Shown here: piece after piece, positions 32,431 through 39,438 of the stretch
Numbering within the stretch: position 1 is the first letter of the stretch
Layout of the letters: each line of letters begins with the position of its first letter
Source: Anaerolineae bacterium
GTDB lineage: Bacteria > Chloroflexota > Anaerolineae > JAAYZQ01
Direction: 5' to 3'
DNA length: 52,175 nt
Assembly: GCA_023544525.1 (NCBI GenBank)
Contig: JAMJFU010000004.1
Coordinates: 1 to 52,175 of the forward strand
Made by a program: the position numbers and the translations under genes
Notes under the pieces: generated by a model
The model's database searches: none
Told to the model about the DNA's origin: nothing
What the model saw: the letters and a program-made list of their open reading frames with translations, nothing else

Positions 32431-32829
32431 CTAGCGGCGGTCCCGTCTGGCCCGCTTTCGCCTGTCGTCCTCGCGGAACACGAGGCTCAGGATAAAGCTG
32501 ACCACGCTGATCAGCAGCGCGCCCAGGAAAGCGGGCACAAACCCTTCGACGCGAAAGTCGACGCCCAACTGTGCAGCGATCCAGGATGAGAGCCAGAGCA
32601 TGAGCGCGTTGATGACCAGGGTGAATAGCCCCAAGGTCAGGACATTGATCAGGCAGGTCAGCAACTTGACCAGGGGCCGGATCAGCGCATTCACCAGGCC
32701 AAAGATGACGGCTACAAGTGCAACTGCGACCCAGGCCTGGTCCCCGGTGGTCTCGATGCCCGGCACCACGGCTGCGGCCAGGGCCAGGGCGGCAGCATTG
32801 ATCAGCCAACTGATGATGAGTTTGACCAA
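32431..32829 (-). CDS. Phage holin family 4-like (Mycobacterial 4-TMS type) membrane protein
   Basis: 132 residues with four membrane helices. The motif FGLVNALIRPLVKLLTCLIN, followed by VLTLGLFTLVINALMLWLSS, is the signature of this widespread family. The C-terminus is strongly basic (DDRRKRARRDRR). Despite the name, these are chromosomal proteins with no proven holin activity, and no phage genes surround it. The gene stands in a minus-strand run with SHOCT-like genes. Confidence 0.9.
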   Translation of the reverse strand: MVKLIISWLINAAALALAAAVVPGIETTGDQAWVAVALVAVIFGLVNALIRPLVKLLTCLINVLTLGLFTLVINALMLWLSSWIAAQLGVDFRVEGFVPAFLGALLISVVSFILSLVFREDDRRKRARRDRR

Positions 32830-32955: not shown

Positions 32956-33339
32956 TTACTCGACGTAAATCTCGACCCGCTCGCCCCCCTCCGCGTCCTC
33001 CACCTCGATGATCTTGCCCTGCGCCCCGCTCTTGACCTGTTCGATGATGGCATCAAAGTCAAAGTCTTCCAGCTCGGGCGCAAAGCGGGCGCCCATGCGG
33101 GTGCCGACGTCCACCAGGCTCATCGGCAAGTTGACGTTGACCTTGTTCTTGCCGGTTTCCAGGTCGGTGACCCGCACCCGGAACCAGCGGGCGGCGCTGG
33201 GAGCGCCCATCGCTGAAGGCGCTTCCTTCTTTTTCCGCTCGGGCTCCAGGGCGCTCAAGAGCCTGGCACCCTCATCCGCCGTGATCTTGCCCTCCGCGAC
33301 CATGTTCAGGATCTGCATTCTCTCCTCTGTGCTTGCCAT
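32956..33339 (-). CDS. SHOCT-like domain protein
   Basis: 127 residues from the ATG at 33339, chosen because GGAGGAAGAG lies just upstream; a longer frame to 33450 has no such site. Residues 5-32 form the SHOCT-like helical hairpin (MQILNMVAEGKITADEGARL). A charged linker follows, then a conserved C-terminal domain (about 47-127): WFRVRVTDLETGKNKVNVNL, DFDAIIEQVKSG and EIYVE. This last domain also appears, divergent, in the next protein (33383-33991). It is probably cytoplasmic. No function is known for the family. Confidence 0.82.
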   Translation of the reverse strand: MASTEERMQILNMVAEGKITADEGARLLSALEPERKKKEAPSAMGAPSAARWFRVRVTDLETGKNKVNVNLPMSLVDVGTRMGARFAPELEDFDFDAIIEQVKSGAQGKIIEVEDAEGGERVEIYVE

Positions 33340-33382
33340 TCTCTTCCTCCTATCTTCTTGCGGTCCCTGGTCTCCAGGGAAG

Positions 33383-33991
33383 CTAGCCGATATAGATCTG
33401 CACTTTCTCGCCCTTCTCATCATCCTGAACATCGATGAAGAGGGGCTCATTTCTGGATTTCCCCTGGCGTAGAGCGATGATCAGGTCATCTACGCCGGTA
33501 TCCTTGAGCTGCGGCACAAACGGTTGGGCCAGGCGTAGCCCCCAAGCAGCCAGTGTCAGAGGCAACGGCAAGCTGAAAGCGACCTTGTGGCCGTTGCCTT
33601 CCCCTTCGCTGATGCGCAGGTGGAGCCAGGTGGCACTGCGCGTCCACCAGGCGATGAGCATCACCCCCAGGCCGAGGATCATGGGCAGCCAGCCGCACAG
33701 CCGCCAACCGGGTGCTGCCCTGATGGAATAGACGAGACCCATGATCAGTGCACCGGCAACGAGGACAATGCCTCCGGCCATGAGTGGATAGATCCAAAAC
33801 CGGGCCCAGCGGGTCTCTGCCTGTTCGACAGGTGACAAGCTGGGCGAACCGCTCCAGCTGGCCCCTTCAGTCCGAGTTTGAACAGCCTCGGACTCTGCCT
33901 GCTCGAGCGCGGTGAGCAACTGGGCGGCTTCCTCCGCCGTGATCTCGCCCGATCCCAGCATCTCGAGGATGCGCAGCTTTTCTTCTTCCAT
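33383..33991 (-). CDS. SHOCT-like domain membrane protein
   Basis: 202 residues from the ATG at 33991 (AAGG upstream). The SHOCT-like hairpin occupies residues 5-31 (LRILEMLGSGEITAEEAAQL). Two membrane helices follow at about 68-90 and 100-118. The C-terminal part (about 120-202) has LRISEGEGNGHKVAFSLPLP, DDLIIALRQGKS and VQIYIG, clearly related to the C-terminus of the downstream SHOCT-like protein. The two genes look like an ancient duplication in which this copy gained a membrane hairpin. They are 43 nt apart and probably co-transcribed. Confidence 0.82.
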   Translation of the reverse strand: MEEEKLRILEMLGSGEITAEEAAQLLTALEQAESEAVQTRTEGASWSGSPSLSPVEQAETRWARFWIYPLMAGGIVLVAGALIMGLVYSIRAAPGWRLCGWLPMILGLGVMLIAWWTRSATWLHLRISEGEGNGHKVAFSLPLPLTLAAWGLRLAQPFVPQLKDTGVDDLIIALRQGKSRNEPLFIDVQDDEKGEKVQIYIG

Positions 33992-34109
33992 AGAACCTTG
34001 TCTCCCCAGCACGATCGGCTGGGTGGCCAACGCCCAACCCACCTACTTGGAATCGCGGATCCCCCGGTTGTCCTGGCCCACTGCGGGTTCCGCGCGTCCG
34101 GCTGGCAGT

Positions 34110-35489
34110 TCACTCCCCACTCAAAGCGTCGATGGGCTCCCCCGCGCCTGCCACGGCCAGCTCATACCGCCCTGAGGACGTCTCTGGCTCCTCCAGCACG
34201 GCGAGACCCACCAGGCCACCAGCCGAGACGATGATGCCCGAGACGACATAGATCGAACGCAGGGCTACGATTTCGCCCAGGGCGGCGGCGGCGACCATCG
34301 AGATCAGGCCGGCTGCCGTGGTCAGGGCATTCAAGGCACTGCCCATCCTGCCTCGTTTCAGGTCAGGGACAGCCAGCTGCATCATGGTTGTCAGAGTCGA
34401 TTGGGCAGGCACCAGGGCCACTCCTACGAGCAAGCTGGCCAGCAGGACCATCAGTGGCATGTAGAGGAGCCTCTGGCCCACGGCCATCTCGGCCTGGGGG
34501 AGACCCGGGGGCAGCGCAGGGTTCAGGTTGGCCAGCGAGTACGTGGGGGAAAGCCCGATCAGGGCGAGCATCGCCCCGATGAACACGATGGTCCAGCCTG
34601 CCAACTTGCGCTTGGAGAAGCGCGCTGTCACAAAGCCAAGCATCACGCCACCCAGGGCCATGCCAATGCCCTGGGCTGCATCCACCATGCCGAGCCCTTC
34701 GGCCCCCAGGCCAAAGGTCCGCTGCATAAAGGGCACCCAGATGACATTCATAGCACCCAGACCCAGTTGCACCACGGCCAGGCAGAGCAAGACGCCGACC
34801 ATGATCCGGTTGCCAAAGAGAAAGGTCACCCCATCACGCAACTCGGCCCGCACCGCTGCGAACTCGCTTCCGGCTGCTGCCTGCCTGCCGCTGGTGGTGC
34901 GTGGGACGGCCATGGTAACGATGGCCAAGGCCGAGACGAAAAACGTTGCCGAGTCGACCAGGAAGGCGACGTGGGCGCCCCACAGCCCGATGGAAAAGCC
35001 GGCCAGCGCTGGCCCGATCAGGAGGCCTGCTGTCTGGACGATCTGCATCAGCCCGTTGGCCGCCAGCAGGTGATCCCTCTCGCGGATGATCAGGGGCAGG
35101 ACGGCGTTCTGTGCCGGGAAGAAAAAGCGGCTGACGGAGGACATCAGGAAGGCGACGATATAGTAGATCCATACCTGGTCTGGGGTTTTGACCAACAAGC
35201 ACAGCAGGACCAGCATGCCACGCAGTACATCGGCCGCGATCATGGTCCGCTTGCGGTCCCAGCGATCGACAAACACGCCAGCCACCGGTCCCAGCAGGAG
35301 CATGGGTAGGGCACTGGCCATGACGGACAGGCCCACCTGCAGCGCTGATCCCGTCAGCCGTTCCACCATGATTGGAATGGCCAGCCAATAGAAGTAATCG
35401 CCGACGAAAGAGATGGTCTGGCCAAGCCACAGGGCCAGGAAACTTCTATTGCGAAAAAGCTGCCGGTAAGGCGTCTTTTCCTGTTCCAC
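34110..35489 (-). CDS. MFS transporter (macrolide-efflux/MFS_3 type)
   Basis: 459 residues from the GTG at 35489, which has GAGGAAA upstream; a TTG at 35501 overlapping the previous stop is an alternative. Twelve membrane helices are predicted. The family signature is NRSFLALWLGQTISFVGDY near the N-terminus and, in loop 2-3, GPVAGVFVDRWDRKRTMIAA, the MFS motif A. It is likely a proton-driven exporter of drugs or metabolites. It directly follows the GNAT gene, so the two are co-translated. Confidence 0.93.
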   Translation of the reverse strand: MEQEKTPYRQLFRNRSFLALWLGQTISFVGDYFYWLAIPIMVERLTGSALQVGLSVMASALPMLLLGPVAGVFVDRWDRKRTMIAADVLRGMLVLLCLLVKTPDQVWIYYIVAFLMSSVSRFFFPAQNAVLPLIIRERDHLLAANGLMQIVQTAGLLIGPALAGFSIGLWGAHVAFLVDSATFFVSALAIVTMAVPRTTSGRQAAAGSEFAAVRAELRDGVTFLFGNRIMVGVLLCLAVVQLGLGAMNVIWVPFMQRTFGLGAEGLGMVDAAQGIGMALGGVMLGFVTARFSKRKLAGWTIVFIGAMLALIGLSPTYSLANLNPALPPGLPQAEMAVGQRLLYMPLMVLLASLLVGVALVPAQSTLTTMMQLAVPDLKRGRMGSALNALTTAAGLISMVAAAALGEIVALRSIYVVSGIIVSAGGLVGLAVLEEPETSSGRYELAVAGAGEPIDALSGE

Positions 35490-35497
35490 GAATTTCC

Positions 35498-36514
35498 TCA
35501 AAACCTCTTCTGTAGTGTCAAAAGGGTCCGCATCTCTTCGAAGCCGTAGGTGCGCAGGATCCTCTGCAGCTCTGTCTCCCGCTGGTAGGCCGTAACCTGG
35601 ACCGGCTGAGGTGGGGCACCTGCCAGTTTGTGCAGGGCGCGGCTGATCAGAGCTGCCTCTACCTGTCCAGCATGCTCAGGATGGACCAGCATCGCCAGGC
35701 GATGACCCTGTTGGCGACGGGCTATGATGATCTTTACCATGCCCACGAGTTCTTGGCCGTTAAGGATCACCAGCCGCTGGATCTGCTGCCCTCCGATCAG
35801 GTTGCCCAGCCAGTCTACCAAACGGTTGCCCCAGTCGGGCCAGTACTGAACCCTCTGGATAGGCCGGAACCACTGCTGAGGTTCGGGAATGACCTGTTGA
35901 GCCAGTTGGTAGGTGGCTCTGCCGTCGGCAGGGCGCCAGGCCCGGACCCGGTAGCCCGGCGCGTCGCTGATGACGATGGAGCGGACCTGGTCAGCCACCA
36001 GATCGATCTCGCCGCCGACTTTCTCAAAGCCCAGGCCAGTATACAGATGCCGGGCAGGCGGGTTATCGTGGCGCACCTGGAGCACTGCCGCCTGGGCACC
36101 ATTGGCCCTGGCCTGGTCGATGGCCCGTTCGGTGAGGCGCCGGCCGATCCCCTGGTTGCGATACTCCTGGGCGACGACGACGTTGCAGATGATATAGCGA
36201 CTGCGGCTGCCGGGCGCCCGGTTGAGGTTCACGTTGCCTACGATCTGGCGCTTGTGGCTGATAGCTTCCTCCCAGACGAAACCGCTAAAGGTATCCTGGA
36301 AGGTCGGGTCTGCCTGGGACAGCCACCAGACCAGTGGGGACAAGCGGCCCATCAAGCGCATTTCTCGCAGGGCCGCCCGGCCCCGCTCGTCCATGTCTTG
36401 GGCAAAGGCGTCGGTGATGAGATCGGCGACCTCGCCCAGGTCCCGTACGGGGTCCAGTCGACGCAGCCCGCCCTGCCTCTGGGCGGTCGCCTCGGTTGCT
36501 GCCGTTACGACCAT
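35498..36514 (-). CDS. GNAT-family N-acetyltransferase
   Basis: 338 residues from the ATG at 36514. Upstream ATGs at 36574 and 36547 lie in or before the -10 element, so they are not used. The GNAT acetyl-CoA motif A is VVVAQEYRNQGIGRRLTERA (R/Q-x-x-G-x-G/A), followed by AVLQVRHDNPPARHLYTGLG and FEKVG, the usual motif B. The C-terminal half (about 165-338) is a second, more degenerate acyltransferase-like domain. Its substrate is unknown. Partnership with the MFS gene suggests modification and export of a small molecule. Confidence 0.9.
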   Translation of the reverse strand: MVVTAATEATAQRQGGLRRLDPVRDLGEVADLITDAFAQDMDERGRAALREMRLMGRLSPLVWWLSQADPTFQDTFSGFVWEEAISHKRQIVGNVNLNRAPGSRSRYIICNVVVAQEYRNQGIGRRLTERAIDQARANGAQAAVLQVRHDNPPARHLYTGLGFEKVGGEIDLVADQVRSIVISDAPGYRVRAWRPADGRATYQLAQQVIPEPQQWFRPIQRVQYWPDWGNRLVDWLGNLIGGQQIQRLVILNGQELVGMVKIIIARRQQGHRLAMLVHPEHAGQVEAALISRALHKLAGAPPQPVQVTAYQRETELQRILRTYGFEEMRTLLTLQKRF

Positions 36515-36545
36515 GACGTTCTGACCACCTGTGTAGACTTGGCCC

Positions 36546-36551
36546 ATTATA
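36546..36551 (-). promoter_or_regulatory. -10 element upstream of the GNAT gene
   Basis: TATAAT on the minus strand, about 30 nt before the chosen start. No good -35 is seen at 16-18 bp, so an activator may be needed. Confidence 0.5.
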
Positions 36552-36670
36552 GCACACCCGGCAGAATTCAACACGTTCGATCTGTTGGGTTGTTAATGTG
36601 CGGCCCGTGTCCGGGGCATAGGCACAAAGCCCGGAGGCAGCAGGCAGACGCAAACTGCCTGGGCCAGCGT

Positions 36671-38074
36671 CTACTCCAGCGCATCCAGCAGCATCTCGGC
36701 CTCTTCGGGCGTAATCTGGCCCTGCTCGACCATCTTGAGAATGGTCAGGCGTTGCTCCTCCAGCTCGGAGTCATCGGGTGAGGTAGCGACGTCCTCCCCT
36801 TCCCGACCCCAGGCGCCATCCTCGGTCCAGGGTTCAGCCTGTGCCTCTCGCTCATGCCGCCGCTTTCTCCACTCCTGGCGGCGTTGCTCCCTCTCTAGCC
36901 TCCGTTCCAGGCGCTCCTGGTGGCGGGCGGCGCTTTCGACGGCGCGGTCCATATCCCGCTGCAGGCGCTCCATGGCCCGCTCTACCGCCTGCTGGGCCCG
37001 CAGGCCCATGTGCTCCCAGTCCACGCTCTCCAGCTTGACCCGCAGGCGGGAGGTCGCGGCTTCCATCTCATCGGCCACCTGGCGACTGATGGCCTCCAGG
37101 TCGATGGCTTGCAGGCCTTCCTCAACCTGTCTCGATATTTCCTCACCGAAGCCAGCGCCCATCGACTCCGGGCCACCGCCAAGGATGACATTGCCGCGGA
37201 CTTCGATAGCCAGCTCGGCACCGCCTTCGCCCAGGGTGCCAGTCAACCTGCCGTTGCTTCGCTCCTGGTTCTGGAGCGCCAGCGAGGTGAGGATCTTGCC
37301 GCGGGCGTTGGCGGTGACGTGGGCATTGGTTCCCTCTGGCAAGCGCACCGTGGCGTTGCCATCGGCCTGGAAGTGGTAACTGTGGCCCTGCCCGAGACCT
37401 CCGCTTAGCACTAGGTTGCCGCCGATGCGGGCCACTTGGGCACCCCCGTTGAGGTCTTTGGCAATCAGGTTGCCGGCGACCTGGTCCAGCGTCACCGGCC
37501 CGTCGACGGACTTGAGTAAGGCATTGCCGCCTACCCGGTCCACGTCCAGGGCGCCACCCAAGGCTTTGACTTGCAGGTTTCCCCCGATGCGCGAGGCCCG
37601 AACACGGTTCAGGCCCTTGGTCAGCAGGCTGCCGCGCACGTTCTGCAGGTCAGCGTTCTCGACTGAACTAAGGCTCGCGTCGCCATAGACGGTGCCGACA
37701 ACCCGGAGCGACGTGGTGGCGTCGACCTTCAGATTGCCATAGACCTCGGCAAGCAGGACCCTGTCCACGCCCTCGAGTTTCAGATTGCCGCGCACCTGCT
37801 CGGCATTCAGGTCGGCCAGGCCGTCGACCTTGAGATTGCCCTTTGCCTGGCGGATGACGACCGGCAGGGAGCCGGGCACCTGTATCTCACAGGAAACCCT
37901 GGCTGACAGTGCGGGACCAGCCTCTGTCTGCTCAATGGTCAGGTGCTCTTCACGGTCGTCTGGGAGCCGGATCAGCAGTTCCGGTTGGTCCCAGACCTCG
38001 AGCAGGACGTTGCCCGCCATTTCGACGAGGGTCAATTGCTGTGCGTCTTCCAGCGGAATGCGCTGTTCGTACAT
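36671..38074 (-). CDS. Beta-solenoid/coiled-coil protein with C-terminal SHOCT-like hairpin
   Basis: 467 residues. Residues 79-235 hold nine repeats, each opening with GN-L or a close variant (G79, G96, G113, G131, G148, G165, G183, G201, G219). They are spaced 17 or 18 residues apart, as in right-handed beta-solenoids of the DUF4097/bactofilin type. A second beta-rich region runs to about 305. Residues 305-420 are a long charged helix (ERAMERLQRDMDRAVESAAR, then the Arg/Glu-rich RRLEREQRRQEWRKRRHERE). The last 30 residues are a SHOCT-like hairpin (LTILKMVEQGQITPEEAEML). It has no signal peptide. It lies 10 nt after the DUF2089 gene, which probably regulates it. Confidence 0.85.
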   Translation of the reverse strand: MYEQRIPLEDAQQLTLVEMAGNVLLEVWDQPELLIRLPDDREEHLTIEQTEAGPALSARVSCEIQVPGSLPVVIRQAKGNLKVDGLADLNAEQVRGNLKLEGVDRVLLAEVYGNLKVDATTSLRVVGTVYGDASLSSVENADLQNVRGSLLTKGLNRVRASRIGGNLQVKALGGALDVDRVGGNALLKSVDGPVTLDQVAGNLIAKDLNGGAQVARIGGNLVLSGGLGQGHSYHFQADGNATVRLPEGTNAHVTANARGKILTSLALQNQERSNGRLTGTLGEGGAELAIEVRGNVILGGGPESMGAGFGEEISRQVEEGLQAIDLEAISRQVADEMEAATSRLRVKLESVDWEHMGLRAQQAVERAMERLQRDMDRAVESAARHQERLERRLEREQRRQEWRKRRHEREAQAEPWTEDGAWGREGEDVATSPDDSELEEQRLTILKMVEQGQITPEEAEMLLDALE

Positions 38075-38084
38075 GGCTGTCCTC

Positions 38085-38459
38085 CTACTTGGCCTTGAGT
38101 AGCTCTACAGCCTGCTCCGACGAAATGTCCCCGGATGCCAGTTGCTGCAGGATCTGTTTGCGTTGTTCGGGCGAGACCGAGTCGTCCCCTTCGTCGACTT
38201 CGTAGCCAAGGCTGCGGATCACCTCGGTGAGGCGTGCCCGGGCGGTGGGGTAGGACATGCCGAGCTCATCCTGGACCCTCGTCAACTTGCCCTCACAACG
38301 GATAAAGGTCTCGGTAAAAGCCAACTGTTGGGGCGAGAGCTGGTAGAAGCGTCCCAAAGTGAACTGGCCCTCGAGGGCCGAGTCGCAGTTCCGGCAGTGG
38401 AGACGGGTCACCGACATCGTATCGCCGCAGACGGGGCATTTCCCGATGACTGGATACAT
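38085..38459 (-). CDS. DUF2089-family zinc-ribbon/HTH regulator
   Basis: 124 residues from the ATG at 38459, with AAAGGAGG upstream. The N-terminal zinc ribbon is CPVCGDTM (C7, C10) and LHCRNCDS (C21, C24). A helix-turn-helix region follows: FIRCEGKLTRVQDELGMSYP, then TARARLTEVIRSLGY. The tail (about 98-124) is again a SHOCT-like hairpin (QILQQLASGDISSEQAVELL). This is the standard DUF2089 layout, a putative transcription factor commonly next to DUF4097-type genes. That is the arrangement here. Confidence 0.92.
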   Translation of the reverse strand: MYPVIGKCPVCGDTMSVTRLHCRNCDSALEGQFTLGRFYQLSPQQLAFTETFIRCEGKLTRVQDELGMSYPTARARLTEVIRSLGYEVDEGDDSVSPEQRKQILQQLASGDISSEQAVELLKAK

Positions 38460-38519
38460 CTTGGTTCCTCCTTTGTGTTTTGATCTCAGTCTGTTGTCAC
38501 GATGGCTGCCCATGGCCCA

Positions 38520-38744
38520 CTAGTGTGAGGGCTGTGGCACGTCGGGAATTTGCAGTGCCAGGCCGGCTTCGGTCACACGCCGGCCCAGGCTGAGCAGCCC
38601 TCGACTCACGCGGGTCAAGAGCCGCAGCCTCCCGGCCGAGATTGGCCGTGCGTGGCGGGGCAGGCTGTTCGAGGCAGTGACAGCCTGTGTTTCGGCCAGG
38701 TGGGCCTTGATGATCGTTTCGCTCAGGCGCCAGTCAGGATAGTG
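38520..38744 (-). CDS. Small hypothetical protein
   Basis: 74 residues from the ATG at 38744; AAAGGAGCATAGGGAG lies upstream. It lies between the strong promoter at 38827-38855 and the DUF2089 gene. The sequence is basic and helical (LRLLTRVSRGLLSLGRRVTE) with no cysteines, signal peptide or membrane helix. No family is recognised. A longer frame to 38855 would start inside the -35 element and is rejected. It is a probable but unproven gene, first in the DUF2089-solenoid operon. Confidence 0.5.
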   Translation of the reverse strand, partial: HYPDWRLSETIIKAHLAETQAVTASNSLPRHARPISAGRLRLLTRVSRGLLSLGRRVTEAGLALQIPDVPQPSH

Positions 38745-38826
38745 CATCTCCCTATGCTCCTTTCCGCAGGCCGGTCCGCAGCTACACAGACCCAGCCCTT
38801 GAGAAAAATTCAAGACTACTTTCAGT

Positions 38827-39198: not shown

Positions 39199-39269
39199 TC
39201 GGGGGTCGTCTAACGGCAGGACAAGGGACTTTGGATCCCTGTATTGAGGTTCAAATCCTCACCCCCGAG
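39199..39269 (+). tRNA. tRNA-Gln (anticodon TTG)
   Basis: The acceptor stem TCGGGGG pairs with CCCCCGA. The D arm is GTCT-AACGGCA-GGAC, and the anticodon arm AGGGA-CTTTGGA-TCCCT has TTG at 34-36. The T arm is TGAGG-TTCAAAT-CCTCA. The discriminator is G; CCA is not encoded. It reads CAA/CAG. Confidence 0.95.
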
Positions 39270-39366: not shown

Positions 39367-39438
39367 GGGCCCTTAGCTCAGTGGCAGAGCGGCCGGCTCA
39401 TAACCGGTTGGTCGCAGGTTCGAATCCTGCAGGGCCCA
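39367..39438 (+). tRNA. tRNA with CAT anticodon (Met elongator or Ile2)
   Basis: The acceptor GGGCCCT pairs with AGGGCCC; the discriminator is A. The D arm is GCTC-AGTGGCA-GAGC, the anticodon arm is GCCGG-CTCATAA-CCGGT, and the T arm is GCAGG-TTCGAAT-CCTGC. The body resembles bacterial tRNA-Ile2 (CTTAGCTCAGTGG, CTCATAA, TTGGTCGC) and has C4-G69 and C5-G68, which TilS reads in E. coli. Ile2, with lysidine at position 34, is therefore quite possible. It is not an initiator, since position 1-72 is a G-C pair. Confidence 0.9.

Follow-up and report, generated by a model that had tools for sequence, protein, structure and literature searches.

The stretch of DNA analyzed here, referred to as the window, comprises 52,175 nucleotides of contig JAMJFU010000004.1 of an Anaerolineae bacterium (phylum Chloroflexota; assembly GCA_023544525.1), and the subject of this study is a cluster of genes on its reverse strand, four of which encode proteins with a terminal helical hairpin of the SHOCT-like kind. 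In the order of transcription, the cluster opens with the gene for a DUF2089 regulator (38459-38085), which is followed by those for a 467-residue protein, predicted below to be of the Toastrack (DUF4097) type (36671-38074), a GNAT acetyltransferase (35498-36574; the true start may lie downstream of 36574), and a putative MFS exporter (34110-35501), the nearest NCBIfam subfamily of which, TIGR00900, scored below its cutoff. Next come two proteins with the hairpin at the N-terminus, a long one of 202 residues (33383-33991) and a short one of 127 residues (32956-33339), and the final gene encodes a small membrane protein of the YvlD/PF04020 type (32431-32829; PF04020, E=9.6e-30). The end of the GNAT gene and the start of the MFS gene overlap by 4 bases. 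A promoter-like site, TTGACA-17-TAGAAT with an extended -10 element, is located upstream of the DUF2089 gene (38855-38827, reverse strand); it matches the consensus at 11 of 12 bases and was the best of three sites in the scanned region, against 1.1 expected in shuffled sequences. These seven genes probably form a single operon. An earlier, sequence-only reading of the window had placed the DUF2089 gene and its neighbor in one operon behind a strong promoter, and the strength of the promoter stands as a consensus match; the boundaries that it drew (32956-38744) do contain the four hairpin genes, but leave out the YvlD gene, which belongs to the unit.

The surroundings of the operon were also inspected. 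Two tRNA genes lie just upstream of it on the opposite, forward strand (39199-39269 and 39367-39438), and an Rfam scan of the upstream region returned these two and, over a tRNA, one spurious plastid hit, but nothing else. An open reading frame at 38520-38747 was rejected as a member of the module, having neither a Pfam match nor a relative in 51 stretches from genomes of the class.

The hairpins of the four proteins all belong to one Pfam family, PF22746 (SHOCT-like_DUF2089-C). A Pfam scan placed this domain at residues 5-36 of the short N-hairpin protein (E=3.6e-13), at residues 3-31 of the long one (E=2.6e-8), at the C-terminal residues 441-467 of the Toastrack protein (E=1.8e-7), and at residues 98-123 of the DUF2089 protein (E=2.8e-5), where the score of 24 bits was under the 27-bit cutoff; in a six-frame scan of the whole genome, the same DUF2089 hairpin reached 27.3 bits, marginally above it. 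This six-frame search found PF22746 above the cutoff at exactly four places in the 4.5-Mb genome, all within 5 kb (33.2 to 38.2 kb of the window), the next-best match having an E-value of 0.054. Since one family accounts for all four hairpins and no other above-cutoff copy exists in the genome, the homology is real and the confinement to 5 kb is not due to chance. The sequence-only reading, which had described one motif at the N-terminus of two proteins and at the C-terminus of two others, is thus confirmed by profile comparison in both the similarity of the hairpins and their positions, and its ‘SHOCT-like’ label can be made precise, the family being that of the DUF2089 C-terminus. Like the classical SHOCT domain (PMC3581485), this hairpin is a short two-helix element found at protein termini and attached to many domains, but it is of a different Pfam family, and the classical SHOCT model matched none of the four proteins at E-values up to 1. 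Two further arrangements of the hairpin were seen among relatives. In one natural protein (L056:4626-5147), tandem hairpins at residues 17-43 and 55-81 precede the C-terminal domain shared by the N-hairpin proteins, which makes it a ready case for the study of hairpin-hairpin packing. In four genomes (G027:C1:4117267-4117460, and also G113, G160 and G328), the hairpin at the C-terminus of Toastrack and the one that begins the product of the following gene are separated by about 15 nucleotides across the gene junction, which suggests duplication or gene splitting.

The domain content of the hairpin proteins was then compared with that of their relatives. The DUF2089 protein contains PF22747 (a zinc ribbon), PF09862 (a helix-turn-helix) and PF22746, in that order; the first two were found in all of its 32 relatives and the hairpin in 28 of the 32, and the mean column identity of the family was 62%. 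The 467-residue protein, described earlier simply as a solenoid, scored 18.2 bits against PF13349, below the cutoff of 22.9, but PF13349 was matched by 22 of its 33 relatives at E<=0.01 (best, 4.2e-20) and PF22746 by all 33. Its AlphaFold2 model, with a mean confidence score (pLDDT) of 89, consists of a beta-solenoid (residues 1-300), helices that include a long one (356-412), and the C-terminal hairpin (435-466). The best match of the model in the PDB was 4QRK (E=2.1e-6, probability 1.00), which is the structure cited for Toastrack in PMC11237479, and 4OPW was also among the matches; whole-chain TM-scores were low (0.1-0.4), so that the assignment is one of fold class only. A PDB sequence search with the Toastrack alignment returned nothing useful. 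Judged by its modeled fold and its relatives, then, the protein is a predicted beta-solenoid, and more precisely one of the Toastrack/DUF4097 kind. At some loci where Toastrack is missing after DUF2089 (L045:4645-5289, L071:7596-8141, L080:312-737, L127, L131 and L150), its place is taken by short proteins of no assigned class that have a hairpin at the C-terminus. The two N-hairpin proteins are paralogs with a common C-terminal domain, which in the short protein has the order beta-beta-alpha-alpha-beta-beta and matched no Pfam family; a fold search with the short protein against the PDB gave no match below E=0.47, and a PDB sequence search nothing useful. In the long protein, two hydrophobic segments, read from the sequence alone, separate the hairpin from this domain.

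Conservation of the cluster was examined at several levels. In a class sample of 60 genomes, our own included, PF22746 occurred in 42; of the 41 relatives with the domain, 38 had at least two copies, and these lay within 6 kb in 37 of the 38. Overall, 110 of the 124 hairpin copies in these relatives had another copy within 6 kb. At the phylum level, 301 genomes were sampled and the domain was present in 176. When GTDB genomes were scanned with the short N-hairpin protein, 358 relatives were retrieved, and the best 80 of these, with the exception of one ‘uncultured bacterium’, bore the name Chloroflexota or names of lower rank. The loci of these 80, found by the short hairpin protein alone and in part overlapping with the 60 genomes (L088 being identical to L037), were annotated with profiles derived from relatives in the class; because many of the contigs are short, the fractions that follow are lower bounds. 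Upstream sequence of 6 kb or more was available at 46 loci; among these, the counts were 42 for DUF2089, 36 for Toastrack, 34 for GNAT, 27 for a long hairpin protein, 13 for MFS and 10 for YvlD, and the hairpins numbered exactly four in 26 loci and five in 6. All 374 classified genes across the 80 loci were co-directional with their locus (374/374). The gene order was also recurrent: GNAT was followed by the short hairpin protein in 48 loci (median gap 59 nucleotides), Toastrack by GNAT in 29 (58), DUF2089 by Toastrack in 16 (3), and the short hairpin protein by YvlD in 14 (29.5), and the median gaps of most adjacent pairs ranged from -1 to 65 nucleotides. The co-occurrence and co-localization for which the sequence-only reading had suggested a check were therefore found across Anaerolineae and beyond.

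The same reading had taken the MFS and GNAT genes as interruptions of the locus, a view that is contradicted by their recurrence on the same strand beside hairpin genes; the notion that the two are inserts was accordingly discarded, and GNAT, the exporter and YvlD are members of the unit. The acetyltransferase scored 71.6 bits against Acetyltransf_1 (cutoff, 20.7), and its acetyl-CoA-binding motif, YRNQGIG, is intact, with G142 and I143 invariant. It was matched in 54 of the 60 class genomes, in nearly all as a single copy. Of the 38 relatives with both a GNAT and a hairpin gene, 28 have the two no more than 8 kb apart; with the chance rate set generously at 2% per genome, the binomial probability of this is about 1e-39, a value that is indicative only, since the genomes are related. 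In a 201-genome sample, the GNAT profile recovered, at E<=1e-40, 25 class genomes and only 3 outside the class. The exporter slot is exchangeable: among the 80 loci it held the MFS gene in 17, additional MFS-like genes in 10, and an ABC ATPase and/or ABC-2 permease in 18. The MFS protein resembles macrolide-efflux families, below their cutoffs. YvlD was within 8 kb of GNAT in 22 of the 44 relatives having both, 4 of these being hairpin-free. A gene for a family-2 glycosyltransferase was also noticed near the module, on the same strand and mostly upstream of DUF2089, in L113 (5028-6452) and 21 other loci.

Beyond Chloroflexota, homologs of the short hairpin protein were found in three genera: on a plasmid of Paraclostridium (34% identity over 96%, E=7e-12), a megaplasmid of Niallia and a replicon of Embleya. 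Each of these carries, directly upstream of the N-hairpin gene, a DUF2089 gene with a C-terminal hairpin match, which is weak in Embleya. The two genes are thus neighbors in Clostridia, Bacilli and one actinomycete, which shows the pairing to be widespread; it probably constitutes the core of the system.

It had been suggested that the hairpin acts as a matching oligomerization tag. To examine this, hairpin identities within and between loci were compared in a permutation test on 119 non-redundant loci, which was repeated with stratification by GC content. The excess within loci was not significant for Toastrack-short (p=0.16), DUF2089-Toastrack (p=0.55) or short-long (p=0.66) pairs, nor for Toastrack-long and DUF2089-long pairs. 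Only the DUF2089-short pair showed a slight excess (0.418 within against 0.400 between loci, or 0.404 after GC stratification, p=0.002), which may reflect relatedness. The nearest hairpin outside its own locus was of the same protein class in 272 of 296 cases, and the partner in the same locus was never as close; the hairpins are therefore old, class-specific paralogs. These results exclude locus-specific matching, while generic or complementary contacts between hairpins are possible. The attached domain can be substituted: beside DUF2089, the hairpin was also found on pentapeptide-repeat solenoids in two loci (L042, 6131-7303; L085, 8558-9163) and on a pentapeptide-Toastrack fusion in a third (L060:279-2708), so that the hairpin is the constant part while the type of solenoid changes.

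Parts of this arrangement have been described before. Ravi et al. (2024, mSystems; PMC11237479) described DUF2089 and Toastrack in a common gene context, with SHOCT-like domains at either terminus, and linked it to the phage-shock and Lia responses to envelope stress; the present locus shares with it the SHOCT-like domains at the N- and C-termini of several products, but differs in having GNAT, an exporter of the MFS or ABC-2 type, a pair of N-hairpin proteins that share their C-terminal domain, and YvlD. The locus is thus probably a Chloroflexota variant of the DUF2089-Toastrack/YvlB-LiaX, phage-shock-like kind, a system that is poorly understood and has already been glimpsed in other bacteria. 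Its earlier description as an undescribed multi-protein system is to this extent overtaken; however, no description of the full operon with GNAT, the exchangeable exporter and the two N-hairpin proteins was found in the open-access literature searched, which did not cover the supplements of PMC11237479. Operons that combine Toastrack with a YvlD/PF04020 protein, as this one does (36671-38074 and 32431-32829), include yvlABCD of Bacillus subtilis and two operons of Toastrack, PspC and YvlD that act in membrane stress, namely LiaXYZ of enterococci (PMC10269926, PMC11601895) and lmo2484-2487 of Listeria (PMC12791056). YvlB contacts PspA and LiaH by two-hybrid (PMC9239133), and it too bears a SHOCT-like hairpin, which is N-terminal in YvlB (PMC11237479) but C-terminal in the Toastrack protein here. 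None of these operons has the DUF2089 regulator, GNAT or exporter of our locus, and the PspC gene of operons of the yvl/liaXYZ type is in turn absent from it.

Because the Toastrack/YvlD operons of Firmicutes act in membrane stress, a role of the same kind can be assigned to the locus by analogy, and we give an even chance to the reading that it is a seven-gene operon that senses and answers cell-envelope stress. In such a mechanism, the long N-hairpin protein would be anchored by its two predicted membrane segments and present its hairpin to the cytoplasm; Toastrack would be soluble and act as the scaffold, its long helical arm tipped by a hairpin, and DUF2089 would be a DNA-binding regulator tipped likewise. 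Presumed contacts between hairpins, class-specific and not locus-specific, would gather the regulator and the scaffold at the membrane. Damage to the membrane would alter this assembly and free or activate DUF2089, which would then raise the expression of its own operon. Among the outputs, the exporter and GNAT might remove or acetylate the offending compound, or GNAT might modify a protein, whereas YvlD would support the membrane. In a more specific form of the proposal, the one-component regulator DUF2089 would be controlled by being recruited, by way of the shared hairpin family, to a hairpin protein anchored in the membrane. The module would then be a stress operon of Anaerolineae as a whole that has not previously been described as one unit; the hairpin would be its constant connector, Toastrack and pentapeptide solenoids could replace each other, as could MFS and ABC-2 exporters, and the dedicated GNAT would be its enzyme. 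This form is put forward tentatively, as possible rather than probable.

Several observations weigh against this reading. The idea that stress is the signal comes from distant relatives. The locus contains no PspA/LiaH effector, the two PspA homologs of the genome being on contigs C483 and C504, and the only above-cutoff PspC is on contig C122, not on that of the locus (C444); these PspA and PspC homologs could nevertheless link up with the locus from elsewhere in the genome. The closest relative in the family (G001/L037) retains, on a contig of 456 kb, no more of the module than GNAT, the short hairpin protein and YvlD, so that neither DUF2089 nor Toastrack is always required. Tags matched within a locus were not found in the permutation analysis, and the classical SHOCT domain, although of a different family from PF22746, stayed monomeric when fused to a reporter (PMC3581485). 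Lastly, GNAT is apart from the hairpin cluster in family f27, and GNAT and YvlD remain adjacent in four genomes without a hairpin (G017, G024, G028 and G042; no match at E<=0.01), so that the module may be two associating modules, one of regulator and hairpin proteins and one of GNAT, exporter and YvlD, which usually travel together.

Among the alternatives, the one that survives best is that the hairpin is an amphipathic anchor on the membrane surface, and not a protein-protein tag, so that each product is tethered singly to the inner leaflet. Ravi et al. propose this for SHOCT-like domains (PMC11237479), and the class-specific conservation without locus matching, as well as the failure of classical SHOCT to oligomerize, would agree with it; however, a further anchor would be redundant in the long N-hairpin protein, which has two hydrophobic membrane segments, and restriction of the hairpin family to one cluster in the genome is easier to reconcile with a contact specific to this system than with a generic anchor. 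On balance, we consider it unlikely. A second alternative, which we regard as improbable, is a drug-handling operon, with exporter and acetyltransferase under DUF2089, in which Toastrack and the hairpin proteins sense a toxic compound and not membrane damage. Exchange of MFS for ABC-2 in the exporter slot, the conserved GNAT with its intact motif, and the likeness of the MFS protein to macrolide-efflux families are in its favor, but many loci keep the rest of the module without an exporter, the best MFS matches are weak outside a few genomes, and YvlD and Toastrack point to the membrane. Finally, the idea of mere proximity, with DUF2089 and the hairpin proteins as a small regulator unit and GNAT-MFS-YvlD as an unrelated cluster often beside it, could draw on the GNAT-YvlD pairs of the hairpin-free genomes, a GNAT-MFS pair in G016 and the separate GNAT of f27, but has very little chance given the intercalated gene order (Toastrack-GNAT and GNAT-short hairpin, median gaps of about 58 nucleotides) in many families and the single strand throughout.

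SHOCT-like hairpins are widespread, and the literature searched yielded no role that has been demonstrated for them; here, all the hairpin copies of one genome are in one short gene cluster that includes a regulator, which offers a clean place to tell whether they serve for contact, as anchors, or neither. The locus would also bring into a large environmental phylum the membrane-stress system of the Toastrack/LiaX kind, which is important for antibiotic tolerance in Gram-positive bacteria, and it names one specific acetyltransferase and one exporter as candidate outputs of that system.

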